From NCBI RefSeq assembly GCF_000348725.1, contig NC_020813.1, forward strand, positions 1,960,248-2,024,247: a stretch of 64,000 nt of DNA, in the 5' to 3' direction. This document shows positions 35,258 through 43,330 of this stretch, in pieces. Below the pieces are notes generated by a model. The model had not been told where the DNA came from. It did not search any database and saw nothing but the letters and a program-made list of their open reading frames with translations. Source of the stretch: Pseudobdellovibrio exovorus JSS. GTDB lineage: Bacteria > Bdellovibrionota > Bdellovibrionia > Bdellovibrionales > Bdellovibrionaceae. Position 1 is the first letter of the stretch. The number at the start of each line of letters is the position of its first letter. The translations under genes and the position numbers were made by a program.

Positions 35258-35904
35258 CAAAAATCACCTACGCATAATTCTTGAGTGTATCTAGAGTCTG
35301 TAATTGTCAGTTGTGTTAAGTTAATTTGATTCCCCTGACGGAACACCAATAGATAGCGACCTGCAATGACAGGTAAGTAACGCAGATCTGTCGTGTTCAG
35401 CTTTAAGAAATCTTCTTTTTGCAGGCTCGTGAAACTTTTTTTGATATCAACGAACTTACCACACCCCATACCGAAGTTCTCATCGTCAATAGTACGCAAA
35501 GGGCTATTACTGATAAAGTAGAGATGCTGTATTTCTGGAAGTGATTCAAACTGCTCTTTCGGAAAGTTCATAAAAAAACTTCCATCACCCGTTACAACAT
35601 TTTTCAAATCGATATCACCACCACCTTTAGGCAATTCATATCGAATGATCGGTTCAGCTAAAACATTTTCACTAATACTTGTGAACTGAATTTGCAGAGG
35701 AACAAGAATATACTGCGGTGAAAAACTGGTGGCCACTTCAGCCATCAGCTTATCTTCGATTTCAACCATCACTTGCTTGGGAATCTGAACCTCACGAGCT
35801 AAATCTTTTACCTGAATCGTAGTTACATCCACAGTCTTTTTTTCTTTAAGACAGCCCGTAAGTGATAGAATACAGATCAAAAATATTAATCGATAGTTAA
35901 GCAT
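35257..35904 (-). CDS. Uncharacterised lipoprotein in the Mla operon
   Basis: 215 residues. The lipobox SLTGC places the lipidated Cys at 18. The rest is strand-rich with no recognised domain; two Cys near residue 148 and the C-terminus (MGCGKF, LCVGDF) could form a disulfide. It starts with ATG at 35904, sharing one base with the stop of the GYF/TM gene, so the two proteins are probably made together and may form a complex. Its position downstream of the mla-type genes suggests an envelope role. Confidence 0.8.
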   Translation of the reverse strand: MLNYRLIFLICILSLTGCLKEKKTVDVTTIQVKDLAREVQIPKQVMVEIEDKLMAEVATSFSPQYILVPLQIQFTSISENVLAEPIIRYELPKGGGDIDLKNVVTGDGSFFMNFPKEQFESLPEIQHLYFISNSPLRTIDDENFGMGCGKFVDIKKSFTSLQKEDFLKLNTTDLRYLPVIAGRYLLVFRQGNQINLTQLTITDSRYTQELCVGDF

Positions 35905-37643
35905 CAATTAACCAAACTTTTAGCCTCGAAAACAGGGTTAAAATTCTGAATCGTAATAAAGTGATCTTTGAGGAAAGCACGAATATCCGCCTGAGAATTT
36001 TGACGAATCAATTTATCCAGCTTCAACCAATCACGATAAAATATCTGTTGTCTAGAGTCTAATAACTGGATCTGTTGTGAAATATCGCTATCTGCGTTGA
36101 CCTTCAGTTTATTTTGGCCAATCAGTAGATGATTTAGCTCTGAGTTCAGATCTAAATTTGAAGATTTTTCTAACGTCACAGCCTCTTTACTGCGCTCTTG
36201 AGAATCGAATAGCAATAAATTCAACTGATCACGATTTTGCGGGTTTGAAATTTTAGCCACGTTATTAGCCACAAACTCAGTAGCAGCGCTTTTTTGAGAT
36301 ACTTCTAAGTAATCATGTAATTGGAACAAGATCAGCTCATCCCCTGTAAGAAGCTTTTTAGCTTCTTCACGCGCGACCTGAAGATCTTTCCACAGATACG
36401 AATTCTGCGGCACTAAAGGCGGCTTAATAAACTGAGCCGCCAATTGGCAAGGTGTATTCAAGAACTGACGTACAGAAACTTTAAATAACACATCATTAGC
36501 AGCTTCATGGGCCAACACGATCTGAGACAAAAGGAGTTCTTTTTTATAATCGTAATAAACTGTTGTGTACTTTTCTAATAAGCTCACTAACTCAGCACTG
36601 AATTGCGCGCGGTCTATCGGTGCCATCGCATGATAAGACTGTGTCATCCCGACTAAATAGCGACCTGACTTTTCTTGATTAAAAAGATTTTTAAATTGAT
36701 TGTAAGCCTCTGTAAAACGACCACTCACCAAGTAAAGTAGAGCTTGATTTTCACGTGTTACTAGTGACGTCGCATCTGAAGAGGTCGATTTAACTAGAGC
36801 CTCTTGCGCTAACGAATAATTTTTTTCATCAAAAGCTCTAAGAAAGTTAACCAGCTCCATACTTGCACGTTGTGTGTGGGATAAGGACTGCTCTTGTAAG
36901 TAACTGATATCTTCGCGAGTAACCAAATTCATTTTAGACAGCAGTGGATACATCTCGAGTAAGTCAGGAAGAATACGGCGTTGAACCGCCACAGGTAAAC
37001 GCGCAAAGGCCTCTGCTGCTTTTTGATATAGCCCTTGATATTTCAACTTGCGCACATTGATGGCTAACTCTTCTTCTTGCTTTTGTAGATTACGTTTTTG
37101 AATAAAGCCATACCCAAAGAAGCCACCGAGTACTAAGACGACGGCCACAATCGTTAAGCCAATCACTTTGCCCGAAAATACACTGACTTTCTTTTGTACC
37201 GCGGCATCTGTTTTAACCCCATAAACCCGTGTTTTTTCACTTCTAACAGGTTGGTATTCAGCCGCATTATTTAGGATTTCTTTAACGATATCGATGTCTT
37301 GTGTATTGGAATAATCTTTATTGTCGAATGAAATATCGGTGAACTTGTTTTCTTCTTTTTCTGGAACCAACAAGGATTCATCGATTGTTTTAGAAACACT
37401 TTGATAGGTCTTGGTACTTTCTTGTCTAGCATCGATCTCTTTACGCATTTCTTCAACAATGCCCTTAAACTCAGGGTTTTCGCGTACGTAAAGCCAACGT
37501 GTCTCTGGATCACGAATTTCGTCAATTAAAGACAATTGTTTTTTACGGATAAGATCAGTTACTTGATCAAACGTATAGGGCCCTAGAATTTTGCTCTCGG
37601 ATTTAATCAGCCATTTTTTCTCTGAGTTTTTTTCAAGATACAT
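35904..37643 (-). CDS. GYF_2-domain protein with single membrane helix and helical C-terminus
   Basis: 579 residues. A GYF_2 domain at about 8-55 (KILGPYTFDQVTDLI...RWLYVREN) is followed by an acidic linker, a transmembrane helix at about 160-180, and about 390 residues of helices that look TPR-like (QGLYQKAAEAFARLP, SGRFTEAYNQFKNLF). The topology is cytoplasmic GYF domain with the repeat part in the periplasm, though helical repeats in this orientation are unusual and the orientation is inferred. It lies 23 nt after the MCE gene. Along with the GYF-PilZ protein it is the second GYF protein in the window. Confidence 0.85.
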   Translation of the reverse strand: MYLEKNSEKKWLIKSESKILGPYTFDQVTDLIRKKQLSLIDEIRDPETRWLYVRENPEFKGIVEEMRKEIDARQESTKTYQSVSKTIDESLLVPEKEENKFTDISFDNKDYSNTQDIDIVKEILNNAAEYQPVRSEKTRVYGVKTDAAVQKKVSVFSGKVIGLTIVAVVLVLGGFFGYGFIQKRNLQKQEEELAINVRKLKYQGLYQKAAEAFARLPVAVQRRILPDLLEMYPLLSKMNLVTREDISYLQEQSLSHTQRASMELVNFLRAFDEKNYSLAQEALVKSTSSDATSLVTRENQALLYLVSGRFTEAYNQFKNLFNQEKSGRYLVGMTQSYHAMAPIDRAQFSAELVSLLEKYTTVYYDYKKELLLSQIVLAHEAANDVLFKVSVRQFLNTPCQLAAQFIKPPLVPQNSYLWKDLQVAREEAKKLLTGDELILFQLHDYLEVSQKSAATEFVANNVAKISNPQNRDQLNLLLFDSQERSKEAVTLEKSSNLDLNSELNHLLIGQNKLKVNADSDISQQIQLLDSRQQIFYRDWLKLDKLIRQNSQADIRAFLKDHFITIQNFNPVFEAKSLVN

Positions 37644-37666
37644 ATTCTATCCCATCAATAAAACAT

Positions 37667-39046
37667 CTAAAAAGGCGCTCGGGTTAACAAGAGTTTCAAA
37701 TCATCATTCGTTAAGTAAATACCCGCTCCGAAGAAGTTCGACTGAGCACCTTTTTTATCCAAGATATCGTTGTATCCCGCTGTCAGATAAAGCCCATAAA
37801 ACAGACGATAGTTCAAAGTGGCACGCATTTGTAATTTTTCAAAATCATAGAAATCCATGCCCGCTTTTAAGTTGCGACCTAGCATGTGATAATCGATACC
37901 AAATCCACCTGTATTTTCAAAAAGACCTGCTCTAAGAGTCCAATCGAAAAAGTTTTTGGCAAAATAAACCGTGAATGTCGATTTGCTTTTAAATGTTTTA
38001 GTTTCGGTGTACGAGTTCCCACCGCCACCACCCGGAGTGATATTGTACTCTGTTGTTTCCACAACTCCCGCAGGATCCGTTACTACACCAACATAGTAGT
38101 AGCGATCCAGACCTGGTTGAATCGTGATACCTACGCTTGTACGAGTTCCTTTAGCTTCACTTAAATAGTATCCGTTAAAGTCTACGCCAGTTTCGATACG
38201 CTCAGCCGCTCCCACCAGACCACTTAAACCTTCAATCGCTGAAGATACATCTTCAGCTGTTTGTTCGTCTGAAATCAACTTACCAATCGTACCTTGACCA
38301 TTATTAATTTTAGTTGTGATTTCTTCGATGTTTTTCATCGAATTATCTAAGCGGGACATCGTGTGCTTCCACGTAGATTTAAAGCCCTGTTCGCTTTCAT
38401 CATTGATCAATTCATCTAATGTAGAGGTGATGCTACCCACCTCGGCGATGATCTGACTGATTTGTTCTTTATTTTCACCAGTCATCTGAGATAAATCAGC
38501 CGTTAACTTTTCAATATTCAAGACGATACGGCCTAAGACATGTTTATCCGTACCATTTTCAGAAACGGCCTCTTGTAGATTCTTAGAGACTTCTTTTAAT
38601 GATCCGGCCAATTCAGTGATTTGCCCCATGACATCATCAAGGCCACCGCCTGATTTAACATTCAGGATTTGACCGCCATCTTCCAGTTCCGGATCACCCA
38701 CATTACCGGGGAAAATTTCGACACTTTTATCACCCAAGATCCCGTTCGCCTTCATCGCCACCGCAGCAGAACGAGTTAAGCTGACATCGGATTTAACAGT
38801 GACATCGATACGAGCCTGACCATCCTGCAAACGAATATCTTTAATGACACCTACTGGAATACCAGCGGATTTAATGGCAGAGCCTTTAACTAATCCTTGG
38901 GCACTTGGTAAAAGAAACCATGCTTTTTTAGAGCGACCCAAATAACTTGGATCATCGCTTACTTGCATAGACATAAAGGCGATCAAGCCGCCGATCAGAA
39001 CTACTAATAGTCCAACTTTAAACTCTGGCGATTTTAAAAAACTCAC
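37667..39046 (-). CDS. MCE-domain (MlaD-like) protein with C-terminal barrel-like domain
   Basis: 459 residues. An N-terminal membrane anchor (about 11-28) is followed by one MCE domain (about 35-130; SAGIPVGVIKDIRL and GILGDKSVEIFPG). Residues 135-285 are a long helical, Gln/Glu-rich region. Residues 290-459 alternate aromatic and polar residues in strand-like segments (TSVGITIQPG, YYYVGVVTDP, FTVYFAKNFFDW, YGLYLTAGY) and end in Phe, as an outer-membrane barrel does. MlaD alone is about 180 residues, so this is an MCE-barrel fusion. It begins with GTG, preceded by GGAG. Together with MlaF and MlaE it forms a lipid ABC transporter. Confidence 0.88.
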   Translation of the reverse strand: MSFLKSPEFKVGLLVVLIGGLIAFMSMQVSDDPSYLGRSKKAWFLLPSAQGLVKGSAIKSAGIPVGVIKDIRLQDGQARIDVTVKSDVSLTRSAAVAMKANGILGDKSVEIFPGNVGDPELEDGGQILNVKSGGGLDDVMGQITELAGSLKEVSKNLQEAVSENGTDKHVLGRIVLNIEKLTADLSQMTGENKEQISQIIAEVGSITSTLDELINDESEQGFKSTWKHTMSRLDNSMKNIEEITTKINNGQGTIGKLISDEQTAEDVSSAIEGLSGLVGAAERIETGVDFNGYYLSEAKGTRTSVGITIQPGLDRYYYVGVVTDPAGVVETTEYNITPGGGGGNSYTETKTFKSKSTFTVYFAKNFFDWTLRAGLFENTGGFGIDYHMLGRNLKAGMDFYDFEKLQMRATLNYRLFYGLYLTAGYNDILDKKGAQSNFFGAGIYLTNDDLKLLLTRAPF

Positions 39047-39074: not shown

Positions 39075-39839
39075 TCAGTGTTTTATTCCTTTATCAACAA
39101 ATCTTCTAACCAACTCGTTATCCGATTTATAAAAATCATCTGCCGTTCCTGATAAAAGAACCTTCCCCGCATCCAACATCACAATATAGTCCGCGATTCG
39201 AAAGGCAGCTTTCAAATCGTGGGATACCATTATAGATGTAGTTCCAGGACGAGCCTGGTGCGTTTCTAGGATTAAATTATCTACCATTTCCGTCAGAATG
39301 GGATCTAATCCTGTCGTCGGTTCATCATAGATCAGGATTTCTGGATCAAGGGCGAGCGCACGAGCTAGACCAGTACGCTTCTGCATACCACCCGAGATCT
39401 GACTTGGTAGTTTATGATTATGTTTCGGATCTAACCCCACCATCGTTAATTTTTCTTGGGCTATCTTTAAAACCTGCTCTTTTGAAAGATGGCGACGATG
39501 CTCTTCTAAGGGGAAGCATACGTTTTCTAATACAGTCATATCATCGAAAAGTGCGGCACTTTGGAAAAGCACTCCATAGTTACAACGAAATGCAGTCAAG
39601 GCATCATTATCTAAAGAGTTCAAATCAGTCCCTAGAATCGACACATGACCAGAGGTCGGGCGATACAATCCTAACATGTGCTTCAACATCACACTTTTAC
39701 CCGTACCAGAGAAACCAATAATAGAAGTCAAACTCCCTTTAGGAATTTTTAAATCAATACCTTTTAGGATGAACTCATGTCCATCGAAACTCTTTTTTAC
39801 ATCATCTAGAACTACGGCGTATTCTTTTGCTGTGCTCAT
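39075..39839 (-). CDS. mlaF: MlaF-like phospholipid ABC transporter ATPase
   Basis: 254 residues. Walker A GFSGTGKS near residue 43, signature ISGGMQKR, Walker B LIYDEPTTGLDP and the H-loop SHDLKA. The YGVLFQSAALFDDMTVLENV segment is typical of MlaF. It drives lipid movement with MlaE and the MCE protein. Its ATG shares one base with the mlaE stop. Confidence 0.95.
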   Translation of the reverse strand: MSTAKEYAVVLDDVKKSFDGHEFILKGIDLKIPKGSLTSIIGFSGTGKSVMLKHMLGLYRPTSGHVSILGTDLNSLDNDALTAFRCNYGVLFQSAALFDDMTVLENVCFPLEEHRRHLSKEQVLKIAQEKLTMVGLDPKHNHKLPSQISGGMQKRTGLARALALDPEILIYDEPTTGLDPILTEMVDNLILETHQARPGTTSIMVSHDLKAAFRIADYIVMLDAGKVLLSGTADDFYKSDNELVRRFVDKGIKH

Positions 39840-40687
39840 TAACCAATCCCTGTCATCACGTAGAAAATACGAATTAAATTCATCAAGAAGTAATCTAGGA
39901 TAATGATGCTCACCATACTGATCACGACTCCGCGGTTAGTGGCTTCACCCACACCTTTTGCTCCGCCTGAGGTATTAAATCCTTTGTAGGTACAAATAAC
40001 GGCGAAAACCAATCCGAAGATCGCAGCTTTAATCAAACCTTCATTAATATGACGAACTTCAACTGTCGCTGCGATTTTAGACATGAAAACCGCGTGATCT
40101 AAACCAACCAATTTAGTACACAAAATCCACGACCCAAACATCGCCATGAAATCGAACAATGCAGTGAGCAGCGGCATACAGATAATCGCCGCTATCAAAC
40201 GTGGAGCAATCAAATACTGTTTCGTATTCACACCCATCACATCTAACGCATCCATTTGTTCATTCACACGCATCGTTCCCAAACGTGCCGCCATAGCTCC
40301 ACCCGCACGGGCGGCTACGATCAAACCCGTTAATACCGGACCTAACTCGCGTGAAATCCCCAAAGCCACTGTCGGACCAACAAGATCCACCGCATTGACA
40401 AGTTTAAATCCTAAGTAAACCTGAAATGATAACGCCAAACCGGTAAAGATACTTGTTAATGTGATAATTCCTACGGATTGATTTCCGATGAATTCCATGT
40501 GCTTTAAAACTTCGCCATAGCGATATGGTTTTACAAATAGCAATCGCAGACTTTGCCATGCAAAAATCGTAATCAGTCCAACTTCACGCACACTCGAAAC
40601 AAAACTATCTACAACAACAGAAATAGTTGTATCAATTTTTGCAGCCCATCTTTGTATCCAAGTGGTTTTAACGTTTTCTTCACTCAT
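39839..40687 (-). CDS. mlaE: MlaE-like phospholipid ABC transporter permease
   Basis: 282 residues. The MlaE fold is seen from the amphipathic N-terminal helix, the central GLIVAARAGGAMAARLGTMRVNEQMDALDVMG motif region and about five membrane helices to the end. The Mla-type complex keeps lipid asymmetry or exports lipids to the outer membrane. The ATG overlaps the alr stop (ATGA). Confidence 0.95.
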   Translation of the reverse strand: MSEENVKTTWIQRWAAKIDTTISVVVDSFVSSVREVGLITIFAWQSLRLLFVKPYRYGEVLKHMEFIGNQSVGIITLTSIFTGLALSFQVYLGFKLVNAVDLVGPTVALGISRELGPVLTGLIVAARAGGAMAARLGTMRVNEQMDALDVMGVNTKQYLIAPRLIAAIICMPLLTALFDFMAMFGSWILCTKLVGLDHAVFMSKIAATVEVRHINEGLIKAAIFGLVFAVICTYKGFNTSGGAKGVGEATNRGVVISMVSIIILDYFLMNLIRIFYVMTGIG

Positions 40688-41865
40688 GTTTTTTTCAATC
40701 CTCTAAAGTGTCTTGGCACGCGCTCTCCGACAGACGTCAGCGTTTCCCACACAATGGTATTTGTATGCAGCGCCTGTTCCGTTGCCGACAAAAAGTTGTT
40801 CTTATCATCGTAACCAAAAAGAATAACTTCCTCTTCAACCCATTGTTCCGGAGTTGTTTTTTCCACAACATCCGTCGCATCTAACATTAAAAAATCCATA
40901 CAAACACGTCCCACGATAGGAACGCGTTCTCCGTTCAATAGGGCATATCCCCGATTTGAAACTAAACGATGAATCCCATCCGCATAACCAATGGGAACAA
41001 CAGCTATATACGATGGCCGCTGAGCTACCCATGTAGAGCCATAGGATACCGAATCACCTACTTCAAGACGTCGCATATTATTCACAACGCTTTTCAAAGA
41101 CATCACAGCCCGAAACTCTGCTGGCCCCTGTAATTCATTTCCTGTGTAGCCATACAACATAAGACCCGGGCGAAATCCCCACTTCTGTTGCAGTAATAAC
41201 TTATTAGGATTTTCAATCTGAGGACCACTTTGCAACTGTGCAAGGCCGACTATACCACCCGTATTCAAAAGATGTGCGTACACATCCATATCTTTGAAGT
41301 AATCAAACACCTGTGAAAAAACTTGAGTTTGACGAGCAGACTGTCCTAAAGCGGACGCCGCATCTTCACCAGAGGTAAAATGAGTTAGTACCGCTTTAAG
41401 TTTCAACTTTTTAGAATTTGAAAAATACTGACGAAGCTTTTCGGCCTCGCTTGGAGCAAACCCTAAACGACTCATCCCCGTATTGAACTTCAGATGAATT
41501 TTCATAGGCTCGTCGGCTACCGCTTCTAGATGTTGAATTTGTTGCCACGAACTCACGACAGGAGTCAGTTGATACTCCATAATTTTTTCAGCACCACGCT
41601 TATCAAAGCCACGAAAAACTAAAATATCTGTTTTAATACCAGAAGCTCTTAATAAAAGGCCTTCTTCAATCAGACAAACACCTAAGACATTAGCCCCTTC
41701 TTTTTCAAGGGTTTTACCGATTTGAACGTCCCCATGGCCATAGGCATTGGCCTTAATCATAGGACATATAAATCGATCATCTGCCGCAATCTTTTTAATC
41801 TGGTTCCAATTAAAGATCAGATTCTCAAGATTAATGTCGGCATAGGTCCGTCTGAACATCTCCAT
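40684..41865 (-). CDS. alr: Alanine racemase
   Basis: 393 residues, the normal length. The PLP lysine is Lys38 in MIKANAYGHG, and the second catalytic base Tyr lies in VSYGSTW near residue 268. Further PLP contacts are LSHxT-like HFTSGED and PIGYADG. It supplies D-alanine for peptidoglycan. It lies 7 nt after the degenerate GGDEF gene and overlaps mlaE. Its placement between signalling genes and a lipid transporter is unusual, since alr usually sits near dnaB or tatD. Confidence 0.97.
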   Translation of the reverse strand: MEMFRRTYADINLENLIFNWNQIKKIAADDRFICPMIKANAYGHGDVQIGKTLEKEGANVLGVCLIEEGLLLRASGIKTDILVFRGFDKRGAEKIMEYQLTPVVSSWQQIQHLEAVADEPMKIHLKFNTGMSRLGFAPSEAEKLRQYFSNSKKLKLKAVLTHFTSGEDAASALGQSARQTQVFSQVFDYFKDMDVYAHLLNTGGIVGLAQLQSGPQIENPNKLLLQQKWGFRPGLMLYGYTGNELQGPAEFRAVMSLKSVVNNMRRLEVGDSVSYGSTWVAQRPSYIAVVPIGYADGIHRLVSNRGYALLNGERVPIVGRVCMDFLMLDATDVVEKTTPEQWVEEEVILFGYDDKNNFLSATEQALHTNTIVWETLTSVGERVPRHFRGLKKT

Positions 41866-41872
41866 AGCTAGC

Positions 41873-43330
41873 TCACGTATTGACCTGAAAGTCAGGTTGG
41901 TGATCTTTAGGAGCTTTATAAATGCAAATCTTGTCTCCGCCTTTAGTTATAATAAAATCTAAAGCTTTGCGAGCTGAATCATTTAGACTTTCTGCTGTCT
42001 TAGTTAACGAAGGATATTCGCTAATACCTTGGCTGACAGTTACAACAAAACCCGCCTTAGAAAAACTTTCGCCTTTTAGGCGCTGACGTAATCGATCTGC
42101 ACGCAAAGCTGCGCCTTTTCTATTACAGTTGATCAGCACCAAAGAAAATTCATTTTCGGCTGTTCGACAAATGTAATCTGGTAAACGGCTGGTTTGTTTA
42201 ATGACATCAGCCACCTTTTTGATGATCTCGTCACAGAAAGCTTTGCCATGACTGACTTCAATTTCGCGAAAGATATCAATCGCGACTTTAACTACAGAAA
42301 TAGGAGCAAATGTTCTTTTCGATCTATCGATTTCTTTATCTAAAATTCTTTTATAAAAAAGCTGATTGTAAAATCCAGTCAAAGGATCTTCCACATCTAG
42401 ATTTTGCGGCTGAGCTTCTAGGGTGATCAAATTGTACACCAAACTCATAAGTGAAAAATCTTCCGCTACCTCTGCAGAAATATCTTGAGGCGTGATCAGC
42501 AGGCCTTCAATTTCATTCTTTAAAAGTAATGGCATAACTTTCAGTGTATCCACACCCCATTTGGCTTTTATATATTGCAAAAAGCTTTCAGGATATTCAC
42601 CCAATAAAATTTTGTCGTTAAAATCTGATTGAGAGGATGGAATTTTATAAGACAGGCCTTCAACCCACTCGTCTGGCATATTCTGACTTGAAACAGAAAT
42701 GTAAGTCTGAATAGAGCTGACGTACTTTAAGAAAGCCCATGACTGACTAGCTGTCTGCCTAAAGAACATTTGAACCAGTTCTTCTTTGCTTTCAGCAGCA
42801 CGATATTCGGCTATGCGTGTTTGAAAAGGTCGAGCCTGTGGACCCATCTTCTGCTTTTCATTTTCTTCTTGCAGGTATGCCAGCTCTCCGGCTGTGCCTT
42901 TATAGGTATTGAACAGTTGTTCATTTTGGTAAAGACGATAGAGCGTTTCACAGGTCTGATCTACAGACATACAAACTTGATCTACGACGACACCTTCGGC
43001 GCGGTTAAAATACTGAACCATGTTGTAATCGCGATAGTCATTCAATTGCGATAGCACTTCTGACTCAGCTAAACAAAGCATTCGTATTTCAGAAGACGAC
43101 TCGAGTACTTTTTGGAAAACCTCAGAAAGAGGAGTCACCAAGGCCGCTTGATCCAAAACAATCACATGGGGAGCTGCACTTTGTACACGTTGAAACATCT
43201 CTTCAAAGTCCGAGAAAAAATGCACATCGTATTTCGCCATTCCAAGAGCAAACTTAAGACGACTTCCCAAATCTGCATCTTGAGAAAAAACGAAAACGCC
43301 AAATTCAGGTGCTACTTCACGGATATTCAT
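41873..43330 (-). CDS. Degenerate GGDEF protein with receiver-like and sensor-like N-terminus
   Basis: 485 residues, cytosolic. Residues 1-120 have a receiver-like order (VFVFSQDAD, HVIVLDQAA with Asp60 at the phospho-acceptor position), but the loop after it is not typical. Residues 180-305 look like a GAF-type sensor. The GGDEF domain (about 315-475) keeps the DPLTGFYN opening and VTVSQGISEYPS, but the active-site motif is AENEF (391-395). The Glu is kept while both Gly are lost, so cyclase activity is doubtful. It more likely binds a nucleotide or a partner. It overlaps the sensor gene upstream by 4 nt. Confidence 0.9.
   Translation of the reverse strand: MNIREVAPEFGVFVFSQDADLGSRLKFALGMAKYDVHFFSDFEEMFQRVQSAAPHVIVLDQAALVTPLSEVFQKVLESSSEIRMLCLAESEVLSQLNDYRDYNMVQYFNRAEGVVVDQVCMSVDQTCETLYRLYQNEQLFNTYKGTAGELAYLQEENEKQKMGPQARPFQTRIAEYRAAESKEELVQMFFRQTASQSWAFLKYVSSIQTYISVSSQNMPDEWVEGLSYKIPSSQSDFNDKILLGEYPESFLQYIKAKWGVDTLKVMPLLLKNEIEGLLITPQDISAEVAEDFSLMSLVYNLITLEAQPQNLDVEDPLTGFYNQLFYKRILDKEIDRSKRTFAPISVVKVAIDIFREIEVSHGKAFCDEIIKKVADVIKQTSRLPDYICRTAENEFSLVLINCNRKGAALRADRLRQRLKGESFSKAGFVVTVSQGISEYPSLTKTAESLNDSARKALDFIITKGGDKICIYKAPKDHQPDFQVNT

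Follow-up and report, generated by a model that had tools for sequence, protein, structure and literature searches.

The window analysed here is a stretch of 64,000 nucleotides from Pseudobdellovibrio exovorus JSS (contig NC_020813.1, positions 1,960,248 to 2,024,247 of the forward strand). It contains a series of minus-strand genes, in the order GGDEF-type gene, alr-like gene, mlaE, mlaF and mlaD, in which neighbours either overlap (by 4 bases in the case of the alr-like gene and mlaE) or are at most about 30 bases apart. The genes and the parts of the mlaD product are as follows.

41873-43330, minus strand: GGDEF-type gene, upstream end of the series
40684..41865, minus strand: alr-like gene (alanine racemase, named by eye from the sequence; open reading frame, conserved neighbour)
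39839..40687, minus strand: mlaE, permease, 282 residues (Pfam MlaE, E 4e-71; TIGR00056 over its cut-off)
39075..39839, minus strand: mlaF, ABC ATPase, 254 residues (Pfam ABC_tran, E 1.2e-31)
37667..39046, minus strand: mlaD, long form with a predicted C-terminal barrel, 459 residues, GTG start (open reading frame, Pfam MlaD, relatives throughout the order)
38960..39028, minus strand: inner-membrane anchor helix of MlaD, residues 7-29 (alignment-based model, hydropathy)
38654..38932, minus strand: MCE domain, residues ~39-131 (Pfam PF02470 at 44-114; VIA-align to 5uw8)
38231..38641, minus strand: helical stretch, residues 136-272, proposed periplasmic tube (model helices, pLDDT ~34-56)
37709..38194, minus strand: predicted beta-barrel domain, residues 285-446, about ten strands (model, VIA-align, alternation over 51 relatives)
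37670..37708, minus strand: C-terminal tail, residues 447-459, NDDLK helix and terminal Phe (model helix 447-456, conservation)

The mlaD operon and its conservation

The mlaD product starts with a single N-terminal anchor (mean hydropathy 2.7 over residues 11-20), which is followed by a single MCE domain (Pfam MlaD/MCE match at residues 44-114, E 7.6e-14), as expected of a barrel-bearing long MlaD; Pfam gives no reliable match in the rest of the protein. When 50 relatives (30-76% identity) were aligned with the protein, all 51 sequences were seen to contain the MCE domain, and the other Pfam families are each common to at most 7 members. The protein scores 56.8 bits against the NCBIfam model of the E. 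coli-type MlaD (TIGR04430), under the curated cut-off of 135, and the MlaF model NF008809 is among the best matches of the mlaF product, with a score under its cut-off.

The alr–mlaE–mlaF–mlaD cluster, with mlaD in last position, is conserved across the phylum. In all 64 loci of relatives that we examined (16 of which come from outside the order, and some of which represent one genome in two collections), the MCE domain and the barrel share a single open frame, 438-538 codons long. Of these loci, 63 have mlaF upstream, 62 have mlaE and 58 have alr; the exceptions include truncated loci. The co-encoding with MlaE and MlaF is that of a barrel-bearing long MlaD, and the two proteins, which an earlier note on this DNA had named as the motor of the system, are indeed the products of the genes that adjoin mlaD, here and through the phylum. 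The region shows no more promoter matches than shuffles do.

Downstream of mlaD, positions 35904-37643 encode a 579-residue protein, of which a relative occurs in 38 of the 64 loci; its N-terminus looks GYF-type by eye, and no Pfam family matches it at E 0.001. In many relatives a gap of about one gene separates mlaD from the GYF-type gene, and in one of them (locus L005, 5382-6914) this gap is filled by purH (AICARFT/IMPCHase). In P. exovorus JSS the two genes are adjacent (37643-37667) and AICARFT/IMPCHase has no match anywhere in the genome, which suggests that the organism has lost this purine step.

Predicted fold and surface of the C-terminal domain

A single-sequence AlphaFold2 model of MlaD was discarded (mean pLDDT 36), and the model discussed here was built on the 51-sequence alignment. 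It predicts, in this order, a helix (7-29), the MCE strands (39-131), helices (136-272), strands (285-446) and a last helix (447-456). The strands of the C-terminal domain are 285-295, 300-310, 315-336 (with a break at 325-328), 344-366 (with a break at 352-354), 369-376, 379-388, 393-400, 406-414, 419-426 and 436-446, which makes ten if each of the two interrupted pairs (315-336 and 344-366) is taken as one strand. By block, the pLDDT lies at about 74-88 for the MCE domain and at 66-91 over most of the barrel, with lower values around 320-350 (43-46 at 331-350) and in parts of the ends. The extended helices predicted between the MCE domain and the C-terminus are those of a long MlaD, in an arrangement that is modelled with low confidence (block pLDDT 34-56). 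The open reading frame, Pfam and the model therefore agree with the layout proposed in the earlier note: an anchor, one MCE domain, a long helical part and a strand-rich C-terminus.

OpcA and the omptins are ten-stranded barrels. When residues 283-445 of the model are compared with known structures using VIA-align, the best matches are membrane barrels: OpcA (Z 16.5, 2.8 A, 146 residues), the designed transmembrane barrel TMB10_163 (Z 15.3, 2.4 A, 131 residues) and Pla (Z 15.1), all of which score above the soluble nitrobindin (Z 12.1); pOmpT is at Z 12.0. The soluble fold that would have spoken against an outer-membrane-type barrel at the C-terminus was not found, and the barrel suggested from the sequence is supported. 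The MCE part aligns with E. coli MlaD (5uw8; Z 16.9, rmsd 1.8, 97 residues).

The composition changes along the chain, with 17% Phe, Tyr and Trp in residues 285-459 versus 1% in the helical part. In the 51-sequence alignment, nine barrel strands clearly alternate between hydrophobic and polar positions, and the mean polar fraction of the hydrophobic face is 0-0.03 in eight of these nine. The exception is strand 355-366, whose polar fraction of 0.16 is due to the conserved K364. The polar face carries conserved charges and glycines, including D289, R302, K357, R372, D385, D398 and R408; it is clearly the more conserved face in five of the nine strands, the difference is negligible in two, and it is reversed in the last two. 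An alternation that is kept across 51 relatives, with a hydrophobic face that is 0-3% polar in eight of nine strands, is more than chance would give; it suggests a polar lumen and a lipid-facing hydrophobic surface, which is the pattern of a membrane barrel. Fold prediction, fold matches and surface pattern thus all point to a C-terminal ten-stranded membrane beta-barrel.

The earlier note had also relied on strand-like alternation and a terminal Phe. The former holds over the 51 relatives, but the latter does not close the last strand: this strand stops at residue 446 and is followed by a short helix (NDDLKLLLTR, 447-456), so that the Phe, which comes after this helix, was rejected as an outer-membrane C-terminal signature. 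An aromatic residue occupies position 459 in 63% of the aligned sequences. In the tail, D449 is invariant, and N447 and D448 are at least 90% conserved. A helical stalk and a C-terminal helix that are both periplasmic would fit a ten-stranded barrel, whose two ends share one side.

Other lipid-transport genes and distribution in the phylum

Neither MlaC nor MlaA has a match in the genome, which is a complete single contig (listed as 100% complete), while the same searches find both proteins in the E. coli and Caulobacter controls. The complete MlaA/MlaC set that would have spoken against the reading of the earlier note was not found; the gene complement is that expected with a barrel-bearing long MlaD, and not that of the E. 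coli-type six-component Mla system. The genome also encodes a homologue of TamB, which is the counterpart transporter in Veillonella parvula.

Two further sets of genes were seen in the same genome. One is a second mlaE-mlaF-mlaD set (L120:2474-4748), whose MlaD, of 254 residues, is too short for a barrel; the other is a reduced Pqi-like pair (L121:4013-5390), consisting of one protein of 175 residues with a PqiA domain and one of 285 residues that is PqiB-like and has two MCE domains. Lipid traffic need not depend on the barrel-bearing system alone, since these genes are present.

The full MlaD is matched in 117 of the 119 genomes of the order, mostly as a long and uninterrupted protein (a few are split over contigs). 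Nine of these matches are weak (E 3e-12 to 6e-4) and probably correspond to the barrel-less paralogue. At the level of the phylum, the barrel profile matches 240 of 291 genomes. Searches in 144 phylum genomes gave no match to MlaA and a match to MlaC in 42 (39 of them over the cut-off). The MlaC-bearing genomes are enriched among those where the barrel is not matched: 27 of the 42 have no barrel match, and 15 have the barrel. A search of plasmids with the MlaD protein gave no match, and a search of contigs returned matches solely from relatives of Bdellovibrio.

A putative envelope-spanning MlaEFD transporter

The E. coli MlaFEDB complex shares with the P. exovorus system the fold of the MCE domain (Z 16.9 to 5uw8) and the partners MlaE and MlaF, but its MlaD has 183 residues and no barrel, and works with MlaC and MlaA. 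LetB and PqiB are envelope-spanning tunnels of MCE rings. Their MCE domains align with that of P. exovorus MlaD, but they stack several such domains and have no barrel domain. The best Foldseek matches of the whole MlaD model are those to mycobacterial Mce1 (8fed/8fef), in which long helices also follow an MCE domain; however, Mce1 is a heterohexamer in which each subunit contributes one strand to a small six-stranded barrel, and no chain has a whole barrel of its own (PMC10665443).

The closest likeness is to MlaEFD from V. parvula, whose MlaD (419 residues, compared to 459 in P. exovorus) has an anchor, one MCE domain, a helical region and a ten-stranded C-terminal barrel that has been localised to the outer membrane (Grasekamp et al. 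2023, PMC10665443). The two systems have the same four-part MlaD, an mlaEFD operon and no MlaA or MlaC, with the barrels compared by their description. They differ in that P. exovorus belongs to a different phylum and has a conserved C-terminal NDDLK helix, alr upstream and an additional barrel-less MlaEFD; barrels with an additional helical extension have also been reported, and the long MlaD type is known from many diderm phyla (PMC10665443). The main text of Grasekamp et al. makes no mention of Bdellovibrio (PMC10665443), and none of the publications listed by our search of the literature on Bdellovibrio with MlaD or MCE deals with this mlaD gene. The fusion suggested in the earlier note is nevertheless not new, being the 'long MlaD with beta-barrel' that Grasekamp et al. 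described in 2023 (PMC10665443), so that the interpretation given there was largely right but the architecture was already known.

We consider it very probable that this protein is the barrel-bearing long MlaD of a three-component, envelope-spanning MlaEFD phospholipid transporter, which would work without MlaC and MlaA and, by analogy with V. parvula, in the retrograde direction. This is because mlaD forms an operon with mlaE and mlaF; its model shows an anchor, an MCE domain, helices and a ten-stranded barrel; the MCE part matches the fold of E. coli MlaD, and the C-terminus that of ten-stranded outer-membrane barrels; in eight of the nine alternating strands the hydrophobic face has almost no polar residues; MlaA and MlaC are unmatched in the genome, and MlaA in 144 genomes of the phylum; MlaC is enriched where the barrel is not matched (27 of 42); MCE domain and barrel share one frame with mlaF, mlaE and alr upstream in the 64 loci; a TamB homologue is present; and V. 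parvula provides a published precedent with genetics and localisation. Counting against it are the low confidence with which the helical stretch is modelled, the awkward geometry of a ring of six ten-stranded barrels, remarked on by the V. parvula authors too (PMC10665443), the presence of a second, barrel-less MlaEFD and a Pqi-like pair in the genome, and the co-occurrence of barrel and MlaC in 15 of the 42 MlaC-bearing genomes.

In the proposed mechanism, the ATPase MlaF and the permease MlaE would sit at the inner membrane, where six anchored copies of MlaD would form the MCE ring, as a homohexamer combined with MlaE and MlaF at 6:2:2. The MlaD helices would prolong this ring as a tube over the periplasm, and the ten-stranded barrels would hold the far end of the tube in the outer membrane, in which case neither the MlaC shuttle nor the MlaA lipoprotein would be needed. 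By analogy with V. parvula, glycerophospholipids would be returned from the outer to the inner membrane. One may even imagine that the barrels merge or pack round the tube, that the system itself thereby lets lipids move across or along the outer membrane and that the barrel end helps this predator to take up prey lipids, but we give this extension hardly any credence.

It is possible, although on balance unlikely, that the barrel is a mere outer-membrane anchor and that lipids enter or leave the tube via another outer-membrane partner. As pointed out for V. parvula, a barrel of ten strands is too narrow to admit a phospholipid, and many long MlaD proteins have no barrel at all (PMC10665443); against this, the conserved cluster contains no evident gene for such a partner (alr lies upstream and, in many relatives, purH and the GYF-type gene downstream). 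This possibility is compatible with the envelope-spanning retrograde transporter that we favour, and differs from it in the last step only. It is rather improbable that MlaEFD exports phospholipids toward the outer membrane instead of retrieving them: nothing computed in this analysis fixes the direction, but V. parvula mla mutants show a relative enrichment of PE in outer-membrane vesicles and are suppressed by the loss of tamB, which the authors read as retrograde transport (PMC10665443). Last, the C-terminal domain is very unlikely to be a soluble, lipocalin- or nitrobindin-like periplasmic barrel that holds a lipid where the MCE tube ends, outside the outer membrane. In favour of such a barrel, nitrobindin chains align at Z ~12 over 134-135 residues and the model has several turns that are short on either side; but membrane barrels reach higher scores (Z 15-16.5), the domain is aromatic-rich, its conserved charges alternate with a nearly nonpolar face in a way that seems better suited to a polar lumen and a lipid-facing surface, and in V. 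parvula the equivalent MlaD domain is recovered with the outer membrane on fractionation (PMC10665443).

These results raise no new question beyond those of the 2023 paper (PMC10665443), but they add to the published barrel-bearing MlaEFD type a dense and conserved group from a phylum with predatory members. The presence of the barrel in 240 of 291 sampled genomes, together with the lack of any MlaA match in 144, supports the view that the six-part Mla system of the textbooks is exceptional, and relatives amenable to culture and mutation would permit a second experimental test of the barrel-bearing MlaEFD.
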